The notes beneath the pieces are model-generated. The model worked only from the letters and a program-made list of their open reading frames with translations. It did no database searches and was not told where the DNA came from. A DNA stretch of 64,000 nucleotides. It comes from Owenia fusiformis (taxonomy: Eukaryota; Annelida; Polychaeta; Sabellida; Oweniidae). Positions 9,802-46,785 of the stretch are shown piece by piece; position 1 is the first letter of the stretch; each line of letters begins with the position of its first letter. The position numbers and the translations under genes are program-made. The stretch spans positions 4,805,375 to 4,869,374 of the forward strand of contig CAIIXF020000005.1 of the NCBI GenBank assembly GCA_903813345.2. Direction: 5' to 3'.

Positions 9802-12555
9802 GGTAGACTGTAAATCTAGTAAATCTAGTAAATCTCGTAAATCTAGTAAATCTAGTAAATCTAGTAAATTTAGTAAAATCTAGTAAAATCTTGTAAAAAC
9901 TTGATTATTCAATGTCTAAGATACAAAGTGCAAATGTCGAAAAAGCACTGAAAATGCCTTTGTATGAATGAAATGAACATGTAGAAAAAATTCTACCTTT
10001 TATTTCATTATATTTAGTTACAAAACAACTATATGTTAGTACTGGATAACAAAATGGTTATCAAATGGTACACCCATTTTATCATCATACACACCCCACC
10101 CAAGAAGCATGCTCTATTAACAAATTAAGCCACACATTTAAGGACTGAGGGGACAATGCGTACCATCTAAATGACGCAGGCTTGTTTTTCCCTTGCAAAA
10201 TGTCATAATGCTTGGCCTATCGGTAGACTGTAAATCTAGTAAATCTAGTAAATCTCGTAAAACTCGTAAATCTAGTAAATCTAGTAAAATCTAGTAAAAT
10301 CTTGTAAACTTTTTAGGGACCATTCATTTGATATCAATGTCAGTCTCTATGAAGAGTATTGGTGATTATGATTCTTTTTTAGAGCAATGCATTATTGTCC
10401 CAACGGGAAGCTAACTCGAATACTACGAAGCCGATTCTCTCTATATTTGATGGAAAGATGTATAATGGTCATACTTTTTATGGACTTTTCATCAAGACAG
10501 CCTCCCTTTTAAAAATGGCGGGAATTTTTCGTAGAAATCTAAGTTATACCTTAGCTCCCTGAATGTAACATCATTTCCATTCTCAAAAAGTGATAAACAT
10601 TACTGTTAGCAATTTCGGCAGTATGCTCACAACATACATGTATATCTATTGATATATTATTGAGCCTGACTGCCATGAGCGATGAATGGGAATGGGGGGG
10701 GGTATTCAAACTGCAATATTGACTATGCAAAATATGAATAGGCTTATTGCCCCGGGCTTATTGCATGGTCAAGAAGTGAGGTAATTTCCCACAAAATCAT
10801 GAAGGATGCATGTAGATTGCAAAGATGAGCATCTAAATGGTGCCACCACATACCTGTTACAAAAAGACCTTCTCTGCATTAAAATTCAGAGTCATTCCTT
10901 TCATCAAATACTCAATTTACACAATTTTTAACAAAATTGTGAAATATTATAATAAAAAAGAATGTTTAAAGGGGTAATATGATATGGCTTTAAACTATTA
11001 ATTACAAGGAATATAAGGAACATATCATCATCAAAACATAAATGGAAAGCATTATAGAAATGCCATACTATACTTTATGTATAGGTAAAGCAAATAGATC
11101 AATCAGTGAGTTGTCTAACTCTTCCCCTTACCATAGCATTTGATTGTGTTTTAATAATTTTTTGAAATTGCCATTTATCCATTTCCCTAACATTGGAACT
11201 TCTACAAATATAGTCAATTGAACAGCATCAACAAACAATAAGCAATAACTAAATTATCTGATAGGCGAAGCATTATAACATTTTGTGAGGGAAAAACAAG
11301 CCTGTGTCATTTAGATGGTACGCATTGTCCCCTCAGTGTGGCTTAATTTGTTAATAGAGCATGCATCTTGGGTGGGTTGTGTATGATGATAAAATGGGTG
11401 TACCATTTGATAACCATTTTGTTATCCAATACTACCATATAGTTGTTTTGTAACTAAATATAATGAAATTAAAGGTAAATTTTTTTCTACATGTTCATTT
11501 CATTCATACAAATGCATTTTCAGTGCTTTTTCGACATTTACACTTTAAATCTTAGACATTGAATAATCAAGTTTTTACTAGATTTTACTAGATTTTACTA
11601 GATTTACTAGATTTACTAGATTTACGAGATTTACTAGATTTACTAGATTTACAGTCTACCTGGCCTATCTGATAATTTAGTTATTGCTTATTTTTTGGCG
11701 ATGCTGTTCAATTGACAATATTAGTAGAAGTTCCAATGTTAGGGGAATGGATAAATGGCAATTTCAAAATTGATTTTTCGAACCCCCAAAAATAATAAAA
11801 ACAATCAAATGCTGTAGTAAGGGGAAGAGTGAGACAACTTACTGATTGATCTATTTGCTTTACCTATACATAAAGTACAGTGTGGCATTTCTACAATGCT
11901 TTCCATTTACGTTTTGATGATGATATGTTCCTTATATTCCTTGTAATTAATAGTTTTAAGCCATATCATATCAGCCCCCTTAAACATTCTTTTTTATTAT
12001 AATATTTCACAATTTTGTTAAAAAATTTGTATATTGATTATTTGATGAAAGGAATGACTCTGAATTTTAATGCAGAGAAGGTCTTTTTGCAACAGGTATG
12101 TGGTTGCACCGTTTGGATGCTCATCTTTGCAATCTACATGCATCCTTTATCATTTTGTGGGAAATTACCTCACTTCTTGACCATGCAATAACCTATTCAT
12201 ATTTTGCATAGTCAATATTGCAGTTTGATTTCGTCAAGCCCACATCCAGATCATATTAGTAAGGGATAAGTTGATTTAACATTATCACCAATTCTTGAAA
12301 TTTTTCATCATGGAACGTTTTTCCCCAGAAAGTTATGTATGCGATATTTATATTTTTGAAAAGTAATTAAAATTGTACAATATTTATTAATAATCAAGAA
12401 TGCTGTAAAAGGAATCATAATCACCTATACTCTCCATAGAGAATGACATTGATATCAAATGAATGGTCCCTAAAAAGTTTACAAGATTTTACTAGATTTT
12501 ACTAGATTTACGAGATTTACGAGATTTACTAGATTTACTAGATTTACAGTCTACC
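9802..12555. mobile_element. Outer foldback/MULE-like element with a nested copy of itself
   Basis: The element begins GGTAGACTG and ends CAGTCTACC. It is flanked by a 9-bp direct repeat GGAAGGTTG (9793-9801 and 12556-12564). Both ends are built from tandem TAAATCTAG-type 9-bp units. It is interrupted at 10222 by an inverted copy of the same element; without that insertion and one target duplication it is about 1306 bp. There is no protein-coding capacity. A 9-bp duplication plus tandem-repeat arms is typical of Mutator-like and foldback elements; the superfamily is inferred. Confidence 0.85.
10222..11660. mobile_element. Inner foldback element inserted in inverted orientation
   Basis: This 1439-bp copy begins GGTAGACTG, ends CAGTCTACC and is flanked by the 9-bp duplication TGGCCTATC (10213-10221 and 11661-11669). 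Its body is the reverse complement of the joined halves of the outer element. Its own version of the target site, near 11265-11285, is uninterrupted. This explains the A-B-A'-B' order of repeats in the region. Confidence 0.87.
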
Positions 12556-34366: not shown

Positions 34367-34900
34367 AAGTATGAGCTGAGGTCCGGCGTGTCATAAATAA
34401 ATGTATTAAAATAACTTTATTGTGTTTCAAAGTCTGTCATTATCATTATGTCACCACCAAAAAGTGTGGTGACATATTCCTATGGTTTCCATTTTGAAAG
34501 TTGACCTTCTCAAGGTAAAAAAATTTGATCTTCAGTGACCTTCTCAAGGTAAAAAAGGGCAAAAGGTATTTTTCAACTTGCTCCAAATTGACCAAATTTT
34601 CTTTTCCAAAATCATCTACGAATTCTCGGGAGTTCAAATCTGAATTTACATTTTAAATTTCACCTTCAACGAACTTAGTCTCATGGTAAAAAGCTATTTT
34701 TCAACTTGCGTCAATTTTTTTCACAATCATCAATAAGTTCTCAGAAATTCAAATCTGACTCAAGATTGAACTCATAATATTTTGATCAACTAGTTGGTGA
34801 CGTTTTGTCATGTTAATGCCCTGTTCTTATCTTTTTATAACCTTATCCATGTGTATGTGCGAATTTTTGGTGAATTAATTCGTTCCTATGTACATCACGG

Positions 34901-34942
34901 GGGGAAAGAGTACCCGCGTATATACAACCTACCGCCGAGCAA
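34901..34942 (+). repeat. Left terminal inverted repeat
   Basis: 42 bp identical to the complement of 45651-45692. The inner end CTACCGCCGAGCAA resembles the subterminal repeat unit CTACCACCGAGCAA at 35333-35346. Confidence 0.9.
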
Positions 34943-35292
34943 AGACCCGAAGATGTCTGAAAGTGTAGGGGGTGAGTTATAAACTTTTGTTTATATCTTG
35001 AATTTCTCAATATGAGAAACAGATAAAACACAGAATTGTGTGTAACTGATAAATTTATTGTTCCAGGCACTCATGTTTGCAAAATAATGAGTACTTAGCG
35101 CAATGCTTACTATCCAATCGCTAAATTCAAATTTTAAATATTTGAATGATGATTTACATCTTGAATAAGTCACAACCATGGCTGTCTTTACTTCATTCGA
35201 TTCAAAGATACAATAGGTGTAAATGTATCATATTTATTTCACTGCCATTCGTTGCATATCATTGAAATCACCGGTGAAAGTTGAAAATGAAA

Positions 35293-35389
35293 GACCCGAT
35301 TATGTCACGAGTACGATTACATAGGACCCGAAGCTACCACCGAGCAATTCCGACTATACCGTGAGTAGAACCCGATGAGGTAGTGAGTA
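35293..35389 (+). repeat. Left subterminal repeat array
   Basis: Units of ~22 bp of the form GACCCGAt...CGAGTA: 35293-35313 (GACCCGATTATGTCACGAGT), 35325-35346 (GACCCGAAGCTACCACCGAG), a partial CGACTATACCGTGAGTA at about 35351, and 35368-35389 (ACCCGATGAGGTAGTGAGTA core). A further GACCCGAAGATG lies at 34944, next to the TIR. They precede the zinc-finger gene and could bind an element-encoded protein; that role is inferred. Confidence 0.75.
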
Positions 35390-35557
35390 AGCTTTCGAAT
35401 GAGCATATAATATCATGACGATATCGCAAATATTCCTTTTTATTTATCATATACTCCTGGCACCGGGATATAATATAATATGATATAATTCCCGCAGCAC
35501 TATACGTCAACTGTTTCCGGCAAAATTCTTTAAACATTGAATTTATGCTTACACTTG

Positions 35558-35826
35558 AATGACCATAATTTCCTATGTGTCTATGGTAAGAGTGCAACCC
35601 AAAAACATTTAATTCTGCATTGCAAGCGCCATTCTACTCAAAGAACCCAACTTGAAGAATCCCTCGAACAGTACAACCTGTGGACCCCACTCAGTGGACA
35701 AGAAAAAATTGAATCTCTAATTTTTCAAAATTCCCTTTCACTTGGAAAGGATTCTATCAATTAAAACATCTCATCGAAGTGTAGTATTTGATAACCAGCC
35801 GATGAAAATTCGAACGAACGAACGGC
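35558..35826 (+). pseudogene. LINE 3'-end fragment
   Basis: The frame encodes CVYGKSATQKHLILHCKRHS followed by QRTQLEESLEQY, the Cys/His-containing tail typical of non-LTR retrotransposon ORF2 C-termini. A stop at 35762 is followed by a short tail ending in CGAA repeats (35811-35824). It is truncated at the 5' side, as is usual for such insertions, and sits within the 10.8-kb element upstream of the zinc-finger gene. Confidence 0.55.
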
Positions 35827-36154
35827 AATCAAGGTTCGAAAACTCTCAAAGGTAACACGAATGAGCCTAATAATGAACCATTCACTTTTTAGCTAAGGCG
35901 AATTTGGATAACGGCAAACCCGTGTTTTAAGGGCGCAAGTGGCCAAGTCCTCATATACTATAGTATTTAGTATATATCTAGTATTTAATGATCCAAAGGT
36001 CTTTTTTCTCCTGTGTTCGTTTTCTATGTTTATTAGGAAATCCACCCACATTGTTTTAATACTTAAATTATGTCTTCTCCGTTCGTCTGCCATCTTTGCC
36101 TTTTGTTCAGTTCAGTGTGGAAATGGTCATACGTGGATTCGCAGGGCGGTATAT

Positions 36155-36433
36155 AGCCATCGTAAGACCCGGAGAACGGCTTGAGCGGGATATACGATTT
36201 ATATGTCCATTAAATCTCATCAGGGATAGAATACAATGGGATACTGTATCATGTTAAGCTTATATCAGGCAGTTACGATTTTACTGGCGCATACCAGAAT
36301 TATATTTCGTTGTTATCCCTATATATATTTAGTATCCAGGGGTTAAAATATGATATTTAGAACGTCATGAATTTTTTGTTTGTTGCGTAATTTGATATTC
36401 CGTTGAGTTGCTGTTTACTTTTTTCAGGTATAA
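36155..36433 (+). promoter_or_regulatory. Putative 5' leader and intron of the zinc-finger gene
   Basis: The start codon at 36439 is preceded by a pyrimidine tract and ttttttcag at 36419-36426, so the 5' UTR is probably split. A plausible upstream donor is ATC|GTAAGA near 36160, inside a locally CpG-rich patch (36070-36185). Inferred from splice consensus only. Confidence 0.35.
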
Positions 36434-36438
36434 CAATA

Positions 36439-37543
36439 ATGGCAGAGCCGGTACTGATTGAGACCGTGGAGCTCGACTCCAGTATTAATATAGGCCCCCC
36501 TGATTCCAGCTACCTTGATGAAAACGAAAATGTATTACCCATGACGTCTACACCCCAAAAGACTTTTAACAGTAGTAATAAAAAACATGAACAACTATTG
36601 CATTGCGCACTTTGCACATCATACAGCACAACACGAAAATACAATTTAAAAAGACATTTAGAGACTCATTCTGAATCGAGTGATGGCGCACCTTTGGCTT
36701 CTCCTTCGAAACACCAGTGTACACAAGATAACTGTCATAAGTCATATACTTCAAAAGCAGGACTTGCAGAACATGTAAGAGGCGTGCATGGCAATGGCTA
36801 CTCGTGCTCGCAGTGCTTCAAGCACTTGAGTTCTGCAACAGCCCGACGACGCCATGAGTTACAAATACATGAGGGTGTAGGTTTCAAGTATGCGTGTGAA
36901 GTATGCAATAAGAAGTTCCGAGCTTCATGCGACAAAGAGGGGCATTTCAATACAGTCCATAGACAATACAAACCATTTAGATGTTCTAAATGCAAAAAGT
37001 CGTATCATTATAGAAGGTCCCTTGACACCCACAAGGTAAAGAACCACTAAACTATTATCCTTAACCAAAGTTTTTTCAAATTAAAAAAGTCCTTCAAAGT
37101 AAAAATATGTACACGGCTATTCTATACTCAACGAAATAGAACAGAGAAACTAATTTTCCAATAGGACTTTGAAGTTCTGTTGTCCATTTATAAGAATATA
37201 TATATTGGTATCATTTTATCAATTTTAGTCATCTAGAATTATTGTTAATTTTATTTTAAACGAGGTGTTGAAGTCCAAATGATATACTGACATATTCGAC
37301 TTTGTAAAGTTAATCATTTTGCCTAAATAAGTTTTATTCTGTAATTAATTTCAGATATCCTGCTTTGGCGAAGGGTATACCTGTACATACGATGGCTGTA
37401 ACGCAACATTTTCATCACATTCCGGACAGATAGATCATGTTGCGGCACTACATAAACACAAGGTATTCAAGTGTGATTCTTGCAGCAAAACATATGGATA
37501 TAGATCATCTCTCAGCAAGCACAGAAGACAAAACAATCATTAA
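36439..37543 (+). CDS. C2H2 zinc-finger protein of the 10.8-kb element
   Basis: Exons 36439-37035 and 37355-37543 join in phase 0 to give 261 residues. I chose the ATG at 36439 (MAEPVLIETVEL) because a splice acceptor lies just upstream of it. An acidic ~50-residue N-terminus is followed by about seven fingers: CALCTSYSTT, CTQDNCHKSYTS, CSQCFKHLSS, CEVCNKKFRA, CSKCKKSYHY, CTYDGCNATFSS, CDSCSKTYGY. Spliced, finger 5 ends H-x3-C (HKISC); unspliced, it ends H-x4-H and translation stops at 37050 after five fingers, 203 residues. Its fingers have low similarity to the TGEKP-linked type. It is probably DNA-binding and, given its place in a TIR-bounded unit with subterminal repeats, may recognise those repeats; this is inference. 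It converges with the nuclease gene 950 bp away. Confidence 0.8.
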
Positions 37544-38495
37544 GTGTTTCAAATATGTTACTGAAGGAAGACTCAACTTTACATGTTATAGATGTGGTTA
37601 TATTTACCACGTGTAGCTATAGGTGTTTGCAATATGCATCAGTTATGTTTTATTCCACATCTTTATAATTATGAACGTTATGAAATAATTATAACTTTGC
37701 TTATTTTGTATTGAAAGTTGTTAGTATTTTAAGTAATTCGTACAACGATTAAGTTGCCAATGGCCAAATGCATGATGTGTAAAATATCAAAGTGTGACCA
37801 AATTATCATTGTGTAATTCACTGCATCATAGCGTTCAACTAAGTTTAACATTTTATATAATTATAAGATGGTTTGGTATACTATATTTTCATTTTAGTAT
37901 GTACATGCTGTCATACTATTATAAATAATACTACCCCTGTTCAAAAGGGATGTTGATTACTTCGTAAAAACATTTCGCCTTTAACTTTGAAGTTCAACGA
38001 ACGATGTGATATGTTTCTTGACCATGTTGCAATATGGAGCATTACAGCAGATTGTCAAACTGTTATTACATACGTTGCTCTAATTCACATTGTCTCTTAA
38101 GGTTGTCTTTTTATCTGTATGAAACGTACTTTACAACGCAGTAGATACATGTGTAAAGTATGCTTGTGTATGAGTATAGTTCTTAGTTTTGATATTTCAT
38201 AAATATATATTTGTAAACTAAAAATATTTTTCTTGTTCTTAATCAAACCGTTATGAAGTATGTTCCAACAAAGTAACATTCTAAGTTAGCATGTCTCTCT
38301 CAATAGGTACTCGCTTTTCCTCTTGTGACAACCAAGGCCTTAAGAAGTAGATGCTCCATTTTGTTTTACGTCGTGTTAAATTGACCCTATATTGAGTCGA
38401 GTATGAATCAGATATGTCTAGATTTTAACTTTACTTCGAATTACTGATATCGTGTGAGAAACGAAATCTATTTCTCATGGCTTAGTAGAACTTCA
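37544..38495. other. Gap between the two convergent element genes
   Basis: AT-rich; presumably the two 3' UTRs. No other coding sequence seen. Confidence 0.5.
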
Positions 38496-41400
38496 TCACT
38501 CAATGTCATAGCCAGTCCGCTTGTGGTAAAGAATCTTTTCTTCATTTCGTCTATGGAACTCACGAATTCCTTTCACCCCCTTGGCAGATGAATCTGGTCT
38601 GCTGACATATACGGATTTCCTTTTGTATTTGTGAGAAGGGGTACATTTATCAAACTCATGATCCCTGTAAAAATAATGAACTATTTAAGATAGGTATACC
38701 CAACAAATTCACTGCAATGAAAAATCACTAAAGAAGTTTTTTAACTTGTACTGGGCTTAAGGGAAAAACTATGGCTGTATAATAGCTGGGATTAACCTTT
38801 AAGTTGGTAGGACATTGTCAGTTCTGAGCAAATCTGAAATTACTTCAATATCTTTGAGCATGTCAGGAAATAATGATGGTCCTGTACGAAATGATCAGAG
38901 CAATTGTTCAGAGTGTTCAGCTTTAGACCAACCAAAACTGTGTGGTACGCCAATATTAAATAAATTGTACCGTGGGTACTGAGCTCACATGATATTGCTC
39001 AGAAAGAGAAAAATGAATGATGGCTAAAATGGCAGACAATAAAAAATGAGCTAAAAAGCAGATATAAAATTTTGCCAATTCTTTTACAATGTAAAACACC
39101 TGAACTCGTTATGAGGTCATCGCCAAGCTAACTTGGCAACCTCTACTGAACTCCTGAACTGACAAAAGGTGAATTTTCTGCAAATAAAATGACAGTAATT
39201 TTTAAAATAGGCAAGCTTTTGAACCTGGACTCACAGGAGGGACTTCTGTGTTAAAGAGGAACCCTAATGATTAAAACAGGAATCTTATTGACCCAGGTTT
39301 TAAAATGTGCTTCCATTGTTAACGGACTGGGAGACAAATGGACAGATCAATGTTAATTAAATGGCTAAAAAACGATATATTTTTGCAGATTCTGTGTAAC
39401 AAAATTATTTCATACAATAACTATTTACAGTGACATGACATTTTACGATGCAAGACACCTGAAACTATTTATAAAGCTACCAAATGGTCCAAAAGTGAAT
39501 TGTGCAAGACAAAAATAGCGGCCATTTTGAAAGTAGGCGAGCTTTTGAATTAGGGGTCATAAGGGAGTTTTCTGTATTGATGCTGAACAAAAATAACTAA
39601 AACGTGATTCCTATCGACAGAGGTTGTAAGTTGCCACTATGTTGACAGACAGATGGATGATAGACGGCCAAGTAGGTGATTGCAATAGCTCACCATGTGA
39701 GCTAAAAACAACATGGGTGTGTTCAATGTCCTATTACTTACATTCTTTAATCTTACCTTATATTTTGAACTCAGTAACAAATGTGCACAAACAATAATGC
39801 AACATTTTTGTAATGTAAATAGTTAGATTACCTAATTGTTATTATATCAGGGGCAATCTCAACAGAATCTTCACGAAAGGACAGATGAGCCAGTTGCACT
39901 GCAAGACCCTGTTCTCCATCAGAATCATCCTCAGCTTGTACACTTACGCCTAGAGGCCGTTCCACATAAACAGGCTTTCTCCGTGTCGTGTTAAAGCAAA
40001 ATCCTCTGAATATCATAAAATGAATATACTGTATACAGCATATTCTCGTATGCAGATATATAGAGTAAATAACTAAAATATATAGATTTTCAATGAAATA
40101 TTTATATGTTTACTAACCTATCAGGATTCAGACGAATGTCGAGAAGCTGGCAAGAGATACTCATCGCTTTTGGTATGTCTGCTGGTTTAAGCACCCCATC
40201 GCCTTGTGGGTCCAAATCTCTGAATGAGCTGAAATATGTTTCGCTCATTTGACTCCCCAATGCTCGAACATTAAACGATCGCTCACCAGTGAATAGGTGC
40301 ATTTGCATTATACGTTCTGTACTAAGGATAATGCCTTCAAATGTAGTGATTGGTATATCCTTTATTTTGTTTGTAATTGGTGGAAATGTATTGAGGGATG
40401 GTAGAACCTTAGACATAAACCACGTTCTTGTTGTCAGAAGATCAAATATCCGTTGGAAAGAATCCAAACCTCTTTCATCGACGCTTTTGTACCATATTCT
40501 CATTACATGTGCATAATCAGCTTCTGAGCAAAATCCCATTTTTCTAAGTTCTGTTTCTACATCCTCACTAAAGAATAACTTGGCAACATCGTTACTCTGA
40601 GGATCTATCACGTCTTCAACAAATGCTAAATTTAGGCCAGTTTTATTGATTTTTTCTGCTCTTGCTACTTTAACCCACGCCTCTCTATCGATACCTGATG
40701 CTTTGTAGCCGTGCCTCGCTATATGGCACCTAGAGTTAGTCAATAAATGATGGAAATCAAGAAAAGCGAAGATTGGGTCTCCATCCTCATCAATTTCAGG
40801 TTTAGTTAGCCAGTGAACCGTTCCCGTCGACCTTGATTTATCAGGTGTCTCGAGACGAGATGGCTTGATAGGAGAACAATTATAGAACTCCCTCATTTCT
40901 CCAGGCCACTCTAGAGTACATATCAATATACATATGGTTTGCTTTTTCATCTGGCTTAATAAACTCTTGAAACTTGATATGCTCTTGGTCTTTTTAGTTT
41001 GGGATCTTATTTTAAATTGCACAGCCGTCCCATCACCAACTTTGGAAGACAGTAAGTTGACATAATCACCTTTCCGTTTCAGACATTTGGTTTCAATCTC
41101 AGTCAGGATATTCTTATTTGTGAAAACTTTTACAACCAACCGCAGTTCTTCAAGGGTGAATGCTTTTTGAATGTCACTTGCAGTTCTGAACAACTTTGCC
41201 AAATCAGTCAAAGTCCTGTGATTCCAACGTTTTTGGATTTTAACTGATGCTGTATGAAATGTTTTTAGAACTTGATCAAGTGCATCATTTGGTAATATTG
41301 TTTTAGCTTCGCAGTCATCACTTGCTAAGGAACCTGATACATTAGCTGAAACATGACCAGTAATCTCCTCATCATGGTTGTAATAGATAGTTTCATCTAA

Positions 41401-44400
41401 GTCAATCTCATCAGCATTCTCAGGGTTTTCTATGGTTATACCCATAACTGTGTCGTCAACAATGTTCTCTGCAGTGTTGTCACTATGCTTACTTTCAGTT
41501 GTTGCATGCTGATAAACATCATCGACATTATCAATGATTTCTTCTTGTAGCATTCTCTCAATGTCGGGATCATCTCTGTTATATTCCCCAATTGTTTCCC
41601 CTTGAAATGTCGTTTGTACATCTGATGGAGGTGGCACATCCTTTGTACTAGCTGATTCTGCTGAACTCTCGTTGGCACCACCTCTTGAGTGCTTTACTTT
41701 TGTTAAGTCAGATTTAACTATTGTGGTTAATCCCCCGGCGATTTCGTCTACGATTTCATTTGTATTCTGACCGTCGGTGTAATTGTTTGTTAGATCAACA
41801 GTCATTTTAATAGCGGTATATAATGCATCATCCAGCTTTGTCATGCTCGATTTTACCTCCTCTGTGATCAAAACGTCTCCCATTGTTGGGCAGATTAGAG
41901 ATCCTATTATATCTTTGGTGTCAAGATTGTCTTTGTCATTTCTGTTCTTGTCATTTACAGTTACTCTTTCGCTTAGTTCTAGTAAGAGATCTACAAGCTG
42001 TTGTTTACTAAGATTTGCTATTCTGTTCCAAAGGAACTTTTGGCACTGGAGTAACGTGAGTGGCTTTGCATTAGCATCTAGAACAGCAAGTTTGTAGAAC
42101 TGGCCATCAAAACCAATAGTGAGGATTTTCAGATTTCTAGCTTTCATTTCTCTTCTCAGGTAGGAAAATATATCTCTCACTTTATAGACTGGTAAACTTT
42201 TCCCTGACAGTCCCCAGAATATAGGAATGGACAATACATTGCTGCCTGCAACCTTAACTCTATCGAGATCTGACAGCACTGCAACTAGGACATCTGATGC
42301 AAGTGGCATTGTTAGTTTGACGCTTTCATGAATTGTTTGAGTAATGTTCTTGCATAAGGCTGACAAATCACTAAGAACTTCCTTTGCTTTGGGATCGTTT
42401 TCTTCAGTTAATTGCAAATCGTCCATGTGTGTATGATAGCGCTCCGATTCACAATACTTGCTCTCAGTATCAGTATCTGATTCTGTGATAACATTCTCAT
42501 TGGATAGTTTGTGAATGCATGCTGATGCCAGTGCTGAGGGGAACTCACAAATTAACTCCACATTGTGACTTATAAACTCTTCAATTTTCCGTTTCAGCTC
42601 CAGGGCAATTGGGGATTTTCTTTTTGGCTTTATCGGATTATCTACACCATATACCTCGACAAGAGCATTGTATATCTCGTTCCAGAGGTCTTCGTCATTT
42701 TTTATGCAGAACACTGTGGATGACTCTGGTGACCAACATAACAGTACACACTTCTCAACTACCTGACCAACTTTGCGTGTTTTAGCACCATTCATATGGC
42801 TCAGCACTTGGGTTATATAGTATGTGGGTACATTGTAAAAGACAGGAAGCTTAAATGCACTCTCATCTTGGAATGGGCATTTGAATTCTGCTGTTAATTG
42901 TATACAGTTTTCTCCCTCCCATCCTTCTCCATCTGGCGAGGTAATTAAGAATGGTTCCTCATTTCTCTTTATGACGTAGCACCCGGCTTCTTTAAAGCAT
43001 AAAGATGGGAAAAAGCATGGCAGTACCTTTCCAACAAATGTTGCGAGTGCATTTTCTTCATTGATGGTTCCATGGTCCAATTTTTCCTGAACTTGAGGTG
43101 AAAACTTGCGTTTTTCGTGGGAGATAAAGACACGTTCAAAGTGGTCTTTTTGCAGTTTGAGAGTACGAAGACCAACTGCATCATATATAGTACTCCCTGT
43201 AACCTTTGCCTCTGTTCTAAGATCAAACCATGCACCCGAACGTTGCGCTAACAAATGGCTGTTTTCGATAACCAAATTTTTGTTTTCTTCACAAATTTTT
43301 GGTTCATGGATACCATCAAGACAAACAAAATTGTGTTGATTCTGCAGTGGAACTGTATTGCCTAATGTGTAATCATTGCTCTCCTGTAGCTTAGAAGTTA
43401 TGAAACCGCATTTATCTGTATTTGTTAGCATATTGAGAACACATTCCTTTACTTCTACGATGACAGTTTTCACCATACTTATTGCTGCAGCATACTTGGA
43501 TTTTTTCCAATCACCCTTTGAGTTGTTTTCCTCCTCGGCGAGTTTCAATAATTTTTCCAATGCATACTTTTTAGACTTGGTAAACTCCCTCAATCCTTGT
43601 AGTCGATTTGCTTGTATTTTCATGAGCTTCTGGATTCGTATCACAGTGTCATCAACAACAGTCTTATCTGACATACGCAGCTGATTTATCGAATAATCTT
43701 CACCATGTATTTGTTTTAATAACAATTGGGCATTTTCTTCTACATTTGCAACTTCAGCTACTTCCTCAGCAAGTTCTCTCTGCATTTCTTGTTTGGTCGG
43801 TGAAGGTTCAAAATTTGCTAGGTCTATTCGTCCATGCTCATTACGAGTTGTATTTATTTTCTTCAGATCCAAAGATATATTGTGAAATTTGATATCAGAA
43901 TTTTCCACCTTTTCCGTATACATTTGAACGATGTTTGACATGAAGCCAGTTTTTATGTCATCTGGTATGTGACTTGAAATTCTGACGGCTGAGGGTACAG
44001 CAAAATTTATATTGGTGTCTTGAGGATCGAAATGTCCTTTTTGTGTTCCACCATCGGAAAGATATCCCTCAGACTTTGTTCCCTTCATGAATGCTAAAAA
44101 CTTTCCATGGAAGAGTCGTTTAGCAGTAAACCAAAACCGCATTATGTCTTCAGAGTATCGCATTTGTGTCGTGTTTTGCAGAGAATGCCACTCCACTACA
44201 TCCAAGAACAACTTGTAGGCTATGTTGTTGAAAGGAAAGGTGTTTGATGCTATCAGTTTTAAAAACTTTTTAAAGCGCTTGAGGTGAAAGGGGTCTTGTC
44301 TTTTAAAGACTTCATACGCGTCTTCGAGCATTGCTTTCAAATGAACAATACCAGTATCACCATCATCATCATCGTCTGGCTCATCCGAGTCACTGACATC

Positions 44401-45077
44401 ATTTATATCTTCAGATGCGACAGCTTCCGAAACTATTGGAGTTATTTCATCATCTGTATCTATTGTATCTTCTGGCTTATCATTATTTTCCAGATTTGCA
44501 TCGATCTAAATAGCACAACATACAAAACAATTATACATAACAACAAACGGTAAATCATATGGAAAATCAATAATTTATTGATAAAATACATGTATATACA
44601 TTGCACTAGTAGTACTGTACAGGTTCATTCTAAAATGCTTATAATTAAAATTAATTCATTGATACATTATCTTATCTAGTTTGTATTGTTGTTTCTCCCA
44701 ATTCACAGTGTAAGTTTACTTATGTTTTGATGACTTACTTGAAATAAAGATCTTGGACGCTGTGTTGAATCAGTTTTGTCCGACATTTTTACTCGCTTTT
44801 TTTGTGGACTATCCTTTTGAACAAGCTTCATATCCTCGAAACGAAAATTACCGTGATCTTTCTTTGATAATGCAATACCATAGTCAAAAACATTGTAAAT
44901 CCATTTTTTGCCATTTAACTCAGGCACATTAACTTTAATACTCAGTAATGGATGGTGCTGACTGAAGTGGACCACAAAGTCATCCATCTCGTGTGATTTA
45001 TAACTACAGTGGTAGCATTTGTATCGAGGACCTGAAATACAATGTTTCGATGTGCAGTGGTAACTGGTGATAGCCAT
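38496..45077 (-). CDS. Zinc finger + YqaJ-type nuclease protein of the 10.8-kb element
   Basis: Exons (minus strand) 45077-44739, 44505-40118, 40005-39832, 38664-38496; all junctions keep frame, giving 1689 residues. The N-terminus has a single C2H2-like finger (YKCYHCSYKSHEMDDFVVHF). An acidic run (DSDEPDDDDDGD) follows near residue 155. At about 530-700 is a YqaJ/lambda-exonuclease fold of the PD-(D/E)XK superfamily: RSGAWFDLRTEAKVTGS, GTINEENALATF, then SPDGEGW and AEFKCPF giving the D...ExK active site, and YYITQVLSHMNG. All key residues are present. The ~1000 residues after it are unassigned; one patch reads LKILTIGFDGQFYKLAV (near 908), another DLDPQGDGVLKPAD near the C-terminus is only loosely EF-hand-like. 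The N-terminal finger probably binds DNA. Catalysis is inferred from motifs; no homologue of the whole protein is known to me. Confidence 0.85.
39006..39710. repeat. Imperfect ~330-bp tandem repeat in the last intron of the nuclease gene
   Basis: Two adjacent diverged units share GCAAGCTTTTGAACC / GCGAGCTTTTGAATT, CACCTGAAACT-type and GACAGACAGATGG / GGAGACAAATGGACAGA blocks. The array is bounded by GAGCTAAAAA at each end (39047 and 39700). It lies within intron 39831-38665. Confidence 0.45.
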
Positions 45078-45169
45078 ATTTTTTTCAATTTCATTTATTG
45101 TTCACAACAAAATGATTCGCATGAATGATGCAGATTGTATGTTTATTATTTTTTCATCAGCACGTCATA

Positions 45170-45277
45170 AACTCGACGATATAATCGGATCTCAAAAGAT
45201 TTTACTCAAGATATTTTCGGATCTTTATAATATTACTCGCCGATCACATCGGGTCCGACGTCCGATAACATCGGGTC
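45170..45277 (-). repeat. Right subterminal repeat array / nuclease gene promoter region
   Basis: Four ~22-bp units in inverted orientation relative to the left array: 45170-45191, 45203-45223, 45234-45255, 45256-45277. On the minus strand each reads GAYCCGAt...TCnnCGAGTA or close to it, with starts spaced 22-33 bp. They lie 93-200 bp upstream of the nuclease ATG (45077), so they may also be promoter elements. Confidence 0.75.
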
Positions 45278-45650
45278 TTTTAGGACAAAGTTTAAGTGAA
45301 GATTTTGCTGTTCAAAAGTGCTATTTTGACCTAATATTTTGACACTGAATATATAATGCATATGCACATCCATTTACCGACCCAAGTATGTCTTATGTAT
45401 GGCTCATTATCAATTAAAGCGAGTATGAATGAGAAAAACAAATCGAAAACCAATATACGTTTACCTTATCTCTTAATTTGGACATAAAAATATATTTCCA
45501 CTATAATTCTAGGCCAATTGCGCCTGCTAAAACATCTTAGTAACAATTCTAACCATCCAAAGGAATTGATAGTGACATTATATTACCTTTATTGTCCATT
45601 TTCCTACGAGATGACATAATCAAACATTTGCTTGGCGGTATATGCGTGTC

Positions 45651-45692
45651 TTGCTCGGCGGTAGGTTGTATATACGCGGGTACTCTTTCCCC
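45651..45692 (-). repeat. Right terminal inverted repeat
   Basis: Exact reverse complement of 34901-34942. A diverged second copy of its inner part (CTTGGCGGTATATGCGTGTC) lies just inside, at 45631-45650. Confidence 0.9.
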
Positions 45693-45934
45693 TCGTGTAC
45701 ATTGTATACAATACACTTAACGAGATATGTATGTTTATATTTTATATTATATCATATAATTTATATTTATGCAGTGACGCAACCCGGGCATAATAAGATA
45801 AAGGGATGACATGTTTGTGTGAATTAAAAATACCCAAGGGTGCTTATAGTTGTGGATTTCTAACGTTGTTGGATGTGTATGTAACGACCTTAGGCCGGCG
45901 ACCTCTCGGTAATAAATTGTGAGGCCAGATAGAC

Positions 45935-46785
45935 CACCCTATGCAGACAGAGCCTGTGGGAAATATTGGGTGCGGAGCAAATGAGCGGAGGGTGCGGAGC
46001 TAACGGTCATTTTTGAATTTAAATTTGGAATATTTCTGTAACTAAGCCGTTTTGGGACTTCAAATATACCAAGATATGTGTATTTGACACCAAATATCAA
46101 TACAATTGTGAAAATAGTAGCGCAATTCATTCTATAGCGACGCAGTGTGCCTTAAACCTTTCCCAGACCTATATATTTTGAAATTATCCTTTTAATACTG
46201 AGTCCCCAGCATTCATAAAAAATGGTGTTCAAGGTACACTATCTATACAAATTATTTTTGCATCTTGGAAGCCAGGCAGTATCAGTGTGATTTTATAAAA
46301 ATTCGGAAATGTTTTTCAGATATGAGCCCCCTCTAAATATTGGGTGCGGAGCAGCTCCATAAACGTAGCTCCGCACCCAATATTTAGAGGGGGCTCATAT
46401 CTGAAGAACATTTCCGAATTTTTATAAAATCACACAGATACTGCCTGGCTTCCAAGATGCAAAAATAATTTGCATGGGTAGTGTATCTTGAACACCATTT
46501 TTTATGAATGCTGGGGACGCAGTATTAAAAGGATAGTCTCAAAATATATAGGTCTGGGAAATGTTTAAGGCATACTGCGTCGCTATAAAATGAATTGCAC
46601 TACTATTTTCACAATTTTATTGATATTTGGTGTCAAATACACATATCTTGGTATATTTGAAGTCCCAAAACGGCTTAGTTTCAGAAATACCCCAATTTTA
46701 AATTCAAAAATGACCGTTAGCTCCGCACCCTCCGCTCATTTGCGCCGCACCCAATATTTCCCACAGGCTCTGTCTGCATAGGGTG
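45935..46785. mobile_element. Foldback element with GGGTGCGGAGC repeats
   Basis: 851 bp, ends CACCCTATGCAGACAGAGCC and the inverse ending GGCTCTGTCTGCATAGGGTG, flanked by TAGAC (45930-45934 and 46786-46790). The arms are nearly perfect inverses meeting near 46355. The motif GGGTGCGGAGC recurs both close to the termini and at the centre. No coding potential beyond mirrored frames. Confidence 0.87.

Follow-up and report, generated by a model that had tools for sequence, protein, structure and literature searches.

A probably autonomous DNA transposon of Owenia fusiformis that joins a YqaJ nuclease to a candidate DDE core

The window analysed here (the whole stretch of 64,000 nucleotides, positions 4,805,375 to 4,869,374 of Owenia fusiformis contig CAIIXF020000005.1) harbours at 34896–45697 a transposon of 10,802 bp, which is bounded by terminal inverted repeats (TIRs) and carries two convergent genes, one for a zinc-finger protein and one for a large protein with a YqaJ nuclease domain. 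Exact ends, staggered insertion over 5 or 6 bp, empty sites and the spread of deleted derivatives were all observed, and the convergent two-gene arrangement recurs in related elements that have TIRs of their own. In our reading, the element is autonomous, has probably been active recently and belongs to a group of DNA transposons that we found nowhere described; it would move by the mechanism proposed below, and we put the probability of this reading at roughly three in four. The ends of the element, with the flanking target-site duplication (TSD), are as follows.

34891–34895, no strand: left TSD, TACAT, adjoining the CACG end and identical to 45698–45702
34896–34942, plus strand: left TIR, 47 bp, starting with CACG (inverted repeat and genome-wide matches)
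45651–45697, minus strand: right TIR, 47 bp, ending with CGTG (inverted repeat and genome-wide matches)
45698–45702, no strand: right TSD, TACAT, identical to 34891–34895

The 42-bp perfect inverted repeat described in an earlier note on this DNA is present as the inner part of the 47-nt TIRs, where it is followed by a single mismatch and then by the outer CACG. The start given there (34896) stands, whereas the end (45695) falls 2 bp short of the true one. When the 498-Mb assembly was searched with the inner 35 TIR bases, allowing up to 3 mismatches, 237 matches were obtained (112 forward and 125 reverse) against 0 for the same bases read backwards, which rules out a chance repeat or a TIR pair occurring only once, the latter being the outcome that the earlier note had named as fatal to its proposal. 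Of these 237 places 100 were listed; counted by eye, 82 of them form 41 inverted pairs, and the remaining 18 have no partner in opposite orientation among the places listed. Thirty-six of the 41 pairs, the window copy included, entered a test for TSDs and the other five were left out; in all 36 a perfect direct repeat directly adjoins CACG...CGTG, of 5 bp in 20 cases and 6 bp in 16, where the probability of an exact 5-bp match by chance is about 0.0015 at the given base composition. The 15-nt flanks are all different among the 36 insertions, so that copies with shared TIRs and differing flanks, which the earlier note had suggested looking for, do exist. The 7-bp duplication TGTACAT proposed there has to be shortened to TACAT, because on the right its first two bases are the last two of the TIR end CGTG; the 5- or 6-bp repeats of the 35 other copies and the empty sites of three insertions agree with this. 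Duplications that are short, nearly constant in length and placed at varied targets are ordinary for DDE enzymes.

Empty sites, also suggested as a check, were sought by joining the flanks of nine of 11 insertions (the window's included; L025/L026 and L027/L028 were omitted as repetitive) and searching the genome with the product. Uninterrupted matches were found for three of the nine, the window's not among them, at 41 other places in the host genome with 93–98% identity, and each of the 10 places fetched has one 5-bp target copy and no element. This search scored 40 of 443 candidates, and the other six insertions may still have empty sites. The tandem-repeat insertion on C6 (L025/L026) resembled an empty site and was rejected as not clean. 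With TIR-bounded copies, TSDs and empty sites all present, the element belongs to the class II transposons.

Eight non-autonomous copies were read whole, and all eight consist of element positions 1–768 joined to 9926–10802 (from 9935 in one), although some carry later inserts or a rearrangement. In the window, the two retained parts are these.

34896–35663, plus strand: left 768 bp, 90–97% identical in the non-autonomous copies, with an inner breakpoint common to 8/8
44821–45697, plus strand: right ~877 bp, 92–98% identical, starting at element position 9926 in 7/8 copies and at 9935 in 1/8

The end pieces of these copies, which lack both intact genes, are 90–98% identical to the window copy overall, and two copies are 99.7% alike. 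Their matching internal structure most likely reflects descent from a single internal deletion of such an element, moved recently in trans. Of 124 candidates for a further coding copy, 32 were scored; none of these was nearly identical to the window copy, and the next best reached 46–52%. The earlier proposal of a two-gene TIR DNA transposon is supported by the copies, TSDs and empty sites, and the window copy is probably the autonomous source.

Both genes bear out their earlier description as convergent, intact and spliced, with open frames and GT-AG introns. The zinc-finger gene (34953–37543, plus strand) encodes 271 aa with seven C2H2-like motifs, and the YqaJ gene (45617–38496, minus strand) encodes 1,684 aa.

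34953–34971, plus strand: zinc-finger gene exon 1, with its start codon 57 nt inside the left end of the element
36428–37035, plus strand: zinc-finger gene exon 2, 5 C2H2-like motifs
37355–37543, plus strand: zinc-finger gene exon 3 and stop, 2 C2H2-like motifs
45587–45617, minus strand: YqaJ-transposase gene exon 1, with its start codon 80 nt inside the right end of the element
44739–45031, minus strand: exon 2, with an N-terminal C2H2-like finger at aa 16–37, seen by eye (Pfam match weak, E 0.061)
40118–44505, minus strand: exon 3, aa 109–1570, with the YqaJ domain, an acidic linker, a helical domain and the putative DDE core
42793–43230, minus strand: YqaJ/lambda-exonuclease-type nuclease within exon 3, aa 534–679 (Pfam PF09588, 26.5 bits against a cut-off of 22)
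39832–40005, minus strand: exon 4, of which aa 1571–1616 are 41% identical in the C5 relative
38496–38664, minus strand: exon 5 and stop, of which aa 1629–1684 are 64% identical in the C5 relative

The helical domain of exon 3 is taken from the confident part of an AlphaFold model. Since the start codons lie so close to the two ends, each TIR probably carries a promoter. In a Pfam scan, the main exon of the zinc-finger gene matched only zinc-finger models above cut-off, with no THAP or DDE match, in keeping with the protein type named earlier. The YqaJ assignment likewise stands: YqaJ is the sole domain above the curated cut-off in the main exon of the large protein, and of the nuclease residues D633, E648 and K650 of the window protein, the D and the ExK are kept in all six aligned relatives. 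The YqaJ domain is classed among recombinases in a passage of PMC10225492. Across the genome, YqaJ-domain matches at E ≤0.01 number 44, of which 39 score above the 31.3 bits of the window protein, and other YqaJ-bearing elements are therefore likely.

Protein searches of the same genome revealed seven further loci with related proteins, roughly 25–53% identical over the longer matched exons. Four of them (C5, C3, C6 and C7) have their own TIRs, and three (C5, C3 and C6) a clear 5-bp duplication.

C5 relative, C5:40.97 Mb: TIR of 63 bp, perfect; TSD GAGAG
C3 relative, C3:22.03 Mb: TIR of 49 bp, perfect; TSD ACCAC
C6 relative, C6:5.36 Mb: TIR of 56 bp at 89%, CACTGTGG ends; TSD TTTAA
C7 relative, C7:16.36 Mb: TIR of 68 bp at 98.5%; edge ambiguous: with CA ends the duplication is ATTAA (5 bp), otherwise there is a 9-bp match

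Five of the seven (C5, C7, C3, C6 and C1) have a C2H2 gene with several fingers, arranged tail to tail with their YqaJ gene. Compared with the finger gene of the window element, that of C5 is strongly similar (E 8e-35), those of C7 (3e-8), C6 (1e-5) and C1 (2e-9) are modestly so, and that of C3 is weakly so (0.045). At C11, a 1438-codon open frame of the same group (L041:2273-6586; G000:C11:10095272-10099585) is intronless over that stretch and has no TIR that we found; it is possibly an immobile or domesticated copy.

The alignments of these proteins, which leave out the C1 relative (inspected by pattern only), point to a candidate DDE core in the region after the nuclease. Acids invariant in all families with letters at the position (at least 6/7) are E762, D908, D1358, E1436, D1451, E1498 and E1530, and four codons stand out.

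42544–42546, minus strand: E762, invariant 7/7, candidate first catalytic position, with D856 as alternative
42106–42108, minus strand: D908 in DGQ, invariant 7/7, candidate second catalytic D
40756–40758, minus strand: D1358 of DxxH, in 6/6 families with the region aligned
40240–40242, minus strand: E1530 in SETYF, invariant 7/7, candidate catalytic E

The DxxH motif is formed by D1358 and H1361 and is followed by N1365 and R1367, and the order D908, DxxH, E1530 matches that of C/DxxH-type DDE transposases (P, hAT, MuDR, Kolobok and Dada). Three further comparisons show weak homology that nevertheless falls in register. First, the C7 relative matches PF21787 (TNP-like RNase H) over the DGQ motif with E 0.0018. 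Second, when profiles of the two halves were set against the P-like transposases that this genome encodes, with alignment rows cut at the first stop, the N half aligned best at D2 (P 0.78) and the C half at DxxH (P 0.08). Third, with its exons joined, the C half scores 21.15 against the P-like transposases, a score reached by 1/200 column-shuffled profiles in a test that covers this half alone, while the reversed profile scores 13.3. The C1 relative has DGQ and E..F. A hidden DDE core in this region is thus probable, and a P-like origin in particular is less likely than not. The earlier note, which saw no DDE transposase and held that the nuclease or a partner might have to perform strand transfer, is probably wrong on both points, given the candidate residues after the nuclease, although homology is weakly supported and no fold was obtained; it did allow that the ~1000 residues after the nuclease might do so.

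Several results weigh against our reading. The window protein has no Pfam transposase match, leaving ~1,000 residues after YqaJ unmatched in the scanned exon (no hAT or MuDR model was among the families listed in the scans), and the PF21787 match of C7 was the only one in 14 pieces scanned, at 19.0 bits below the cut-off of 24.6. By its own statistics, hhalign against P-like proteins was not significant (P 0.07 to 0.78), nor were the group alignments A5 and A3 against three such proteins. Both AlphaFold models (14 rows) were poor over the core, with a mean predicted local distance difference test score of 54.6 and 52.9. Foldseek gave no hit at E ≤0.001 (best E 0.027, a nuclear-pore protein), VIA-align none with Z ≥8 (best Z 5.5, with no transposase in the 50 rows listed), and PDB sequences gave no hits from phmmer with the main exon or hmmsearch with its alignment. 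The first catalytic acid may be either E762 or D856, the latter being D in 6/7 families and E in the seventh; a simple pattern found no correctly placed DxxH in the C1 relative, and most of aa 978–1442, DxxH included, is missing from the C3 relative. As for the finger partner, C2H2 genes are common in the genome (68 matches at E 1e-4), so that position outweighs similarity for the pairing in C7, C3, C6 and C1. The finger gene at C11a (E 2e-18) is on the opposite side of the YqaJ gene and oriented divergently (head to head), none was found at C11b within the stretch read, and C1, C11a and C11b, three of the eight loci with the window's counted, have no assignable terminal repeat.

That no standard transposase domain was detected in the window protein would also suit a passenger, in which a partner element with identical TIRs supplies the transposase while the two proteins encoded in the window element have accessory roles, and such a partner could be among the TIR places outside the 100 listed. 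However, none of the other inverted pairs among the listed places reaches 10.8 kb; the longest, of 6.3 kb (L053, G000:C9:3801600-3808060), is a deleted copy with an insertion holding a 1310-aa open frame that resembles a retroelement polyprotein. Each of the four diverged relatives that have TIRs of their own moreover carries a large gene of like kind, and we regard a passenger as improbable. More improbable still is strand transfer by the YqaJ nuclease itself, which would make the element a mechanistically new, non-DDE transposon. The standing of YqaJ as the sole domain above cut-off, and the conservation of D633, E648 and K650 in the window protein and all six relatives, would fit this idea, but the C-terminal half has invariant acidic and DxxH residues of its own, the TSD pattern is ordinary for DDE enzymes, and such nucleases are accessories in ISL2EU and KolobokE (passages of PMC4482050 and PMC9587614).

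Of the known groups nearest to the element (the P superfamily, KolobokE, ISL2EU and Dada), these two both carry a YqaJ or lambda-exonuclease-like nuclease. ISL2EU (PHIS) is described in PMC4482050, in part, as having two open reading frames (ORFs), one with a YqaJ exonuclease domain and the other with THAP, helix-turn-helix and DDE domains, and AT TSDs. The window element shares the two ORFs, one carrying YqaJ, but its second shows only C2H2 fingers and its TSDs are not AT, so that membership is ruled out by the TSDs and by the lack of a THAP or DDE match in the main exon of the other gene. KolobokE joins a C/DxxH-class DDE to a PD-(D/E)XK lambda-exonuclease-like nuclease downstream of the transposase domain, and Kolobok elements have TTAA TSDs and 5'-RR termini (passages of PMC9587614). 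A similar union is present in the window protein if its candidate DDE is accepted, but on that reading the YqaJ domain (aa 534–679) lies upstream of D908–E1530 within one protein, and the element has varied 5/6-bp TSDs, CACG termini and an extra zinc-finger gene; TSDs, termini and domain order rule out membership in Kolobok or KolobokE. With 36/36 insertions unlike the AT or TTAA duplications, it is hardly credible that the element belongs to either ISL2EU or KolobokE.

Dada elements, according to parts of PMC3706591, have a DxxH-class DDE and no TIRs, target small RNA genes with 6–7 bp TSDs and, in two hosts, carry a DEDDy-type exonuclease domain inserted between D2 and DxxH. They resemble the window element in the DxxH class, in the exonuclease of some members and in having TSDs of similar length, and differ from it in that it has 47-bp TIRs and another type of nuclease, which rules out membership; the 36 insertions also all differ in their flanks, which were not searched for RNA genes. 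The P superfamily (P element, THAP9) shares the order D2, DxxH, E and a weak collinear alignment with P-like proteins of the same genome, and the distance from DxxH to E is close (172 aa in the window protein versus 192 in DmTNP). In DmTNP, with D303, D339 and E531, D2 and DxxH are 36 residues apart and DxxH and E 192 (passage of PMC8230255), whereas D2 and DxxH lie 450 aa apart in the window protein, which in addition has an N-terminal YqaJ nuclease and no PF21787 match above cut-off. TSDs of P are ~8 bp (passage of PMC3706591), against 5 or 6 bp in 36/36 here. Canonical P membership is ruled out by TSD length and D2–DxxH spacing.

P-like transposases (PF21787) of other families occur at 13 places in the genome, some with long open frames. 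Separately, L112 (G000:C3:13968890) and seven other places have an exon-like stretch of ~50 aa akin to the DxxH–E region, with 45–50% identity and short open frames; no element was recognised around the one of these eight places that was read.

The TSDs, domain order and spacing are unlike those of ISL2EU, Kolobok or KolobokE, Dada and canonical P, and we have therefore filed the element outside these groups. It is likely to represent a new group, at the rank of a superfamily, of DDE transposons that have a nuclease built in; the comparison behind this covered the four groups just named in detail, and not hAT or MuDR. Another reading makes the element a divergent offshoot of one of the named C/DxxH superfamilies (P, hAT, MuDR, Kolobok or Dada) that gained YqaJ and changed its TSD length; it overlaps with our reading and differs from it in rank alone. 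The DxxH signature, the weak PF21787 match and the shuffle control favour such a branch, as do the TSDs of hAT, which span 5–8 bp (passage of PMC4482050), but TSD, termini, domain order or spacing are unlike P, Kolobok and Dada; we consider it possible, though unlikely. The group is not described in titles or abstract starts among the literature matches listed, a search that did not cover Repbase, where an entry is possible.

We postulate the following mechanism for the group. Each gene would be transcribed inward from its own TIR. The large protein would bind the TIRs, and its DDE core would cut at CACG and join the ends to phosphates in the target that lie 5 or 6 bp from each other, while the YqaJ domain may trim or remove a strand at the donor break or at the transposon ends. 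The separate C2H2 protein would bind TIR or subterminal DNA, as partner or regulator, with the fingers of both proteins contacting DNA. Replicative transfer may be an alternative mode of movement. More tentatively, and with the balance leaning slightly against it, the group could be a new superfamily of cut-and-paste transposons of eukaryotes in which a lambda-exonuclease-type nuclease, forming part of the transposase and placed ahead of a split DDE core, is required in end processing, the zinc-finger protein is a dedicated partner and the 5/6-bp cuts are flexible.

To our knowledge, eukaryotic YqaJ-bearing proteins are mostly uncharacterised, and the element links one group of them to precisely defined transposon ends, to TSDs and empty sites, and to deleted copies that have spread recently. 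It is a probable addition at superfamily level and would add to KolobokE, KolobokD and Dada a further case in which a nuclease is joined to a transposase of the DxxH class. An intact source copy accompanied by many deleted derivatives makes the role of the nuclease in transposition testable in a cell assay.

Just to the right of the element, at 46020–46700 of the window, lies a 333-nt inverted repeat, 95% complementary and with a 15-nt spacer. A word of this repeat, AAATATTGGGTGCGGAGC, recurs in inverted repeats of 587 bp, 96% identical and ~15 kb apart, that flank the C11a relative.

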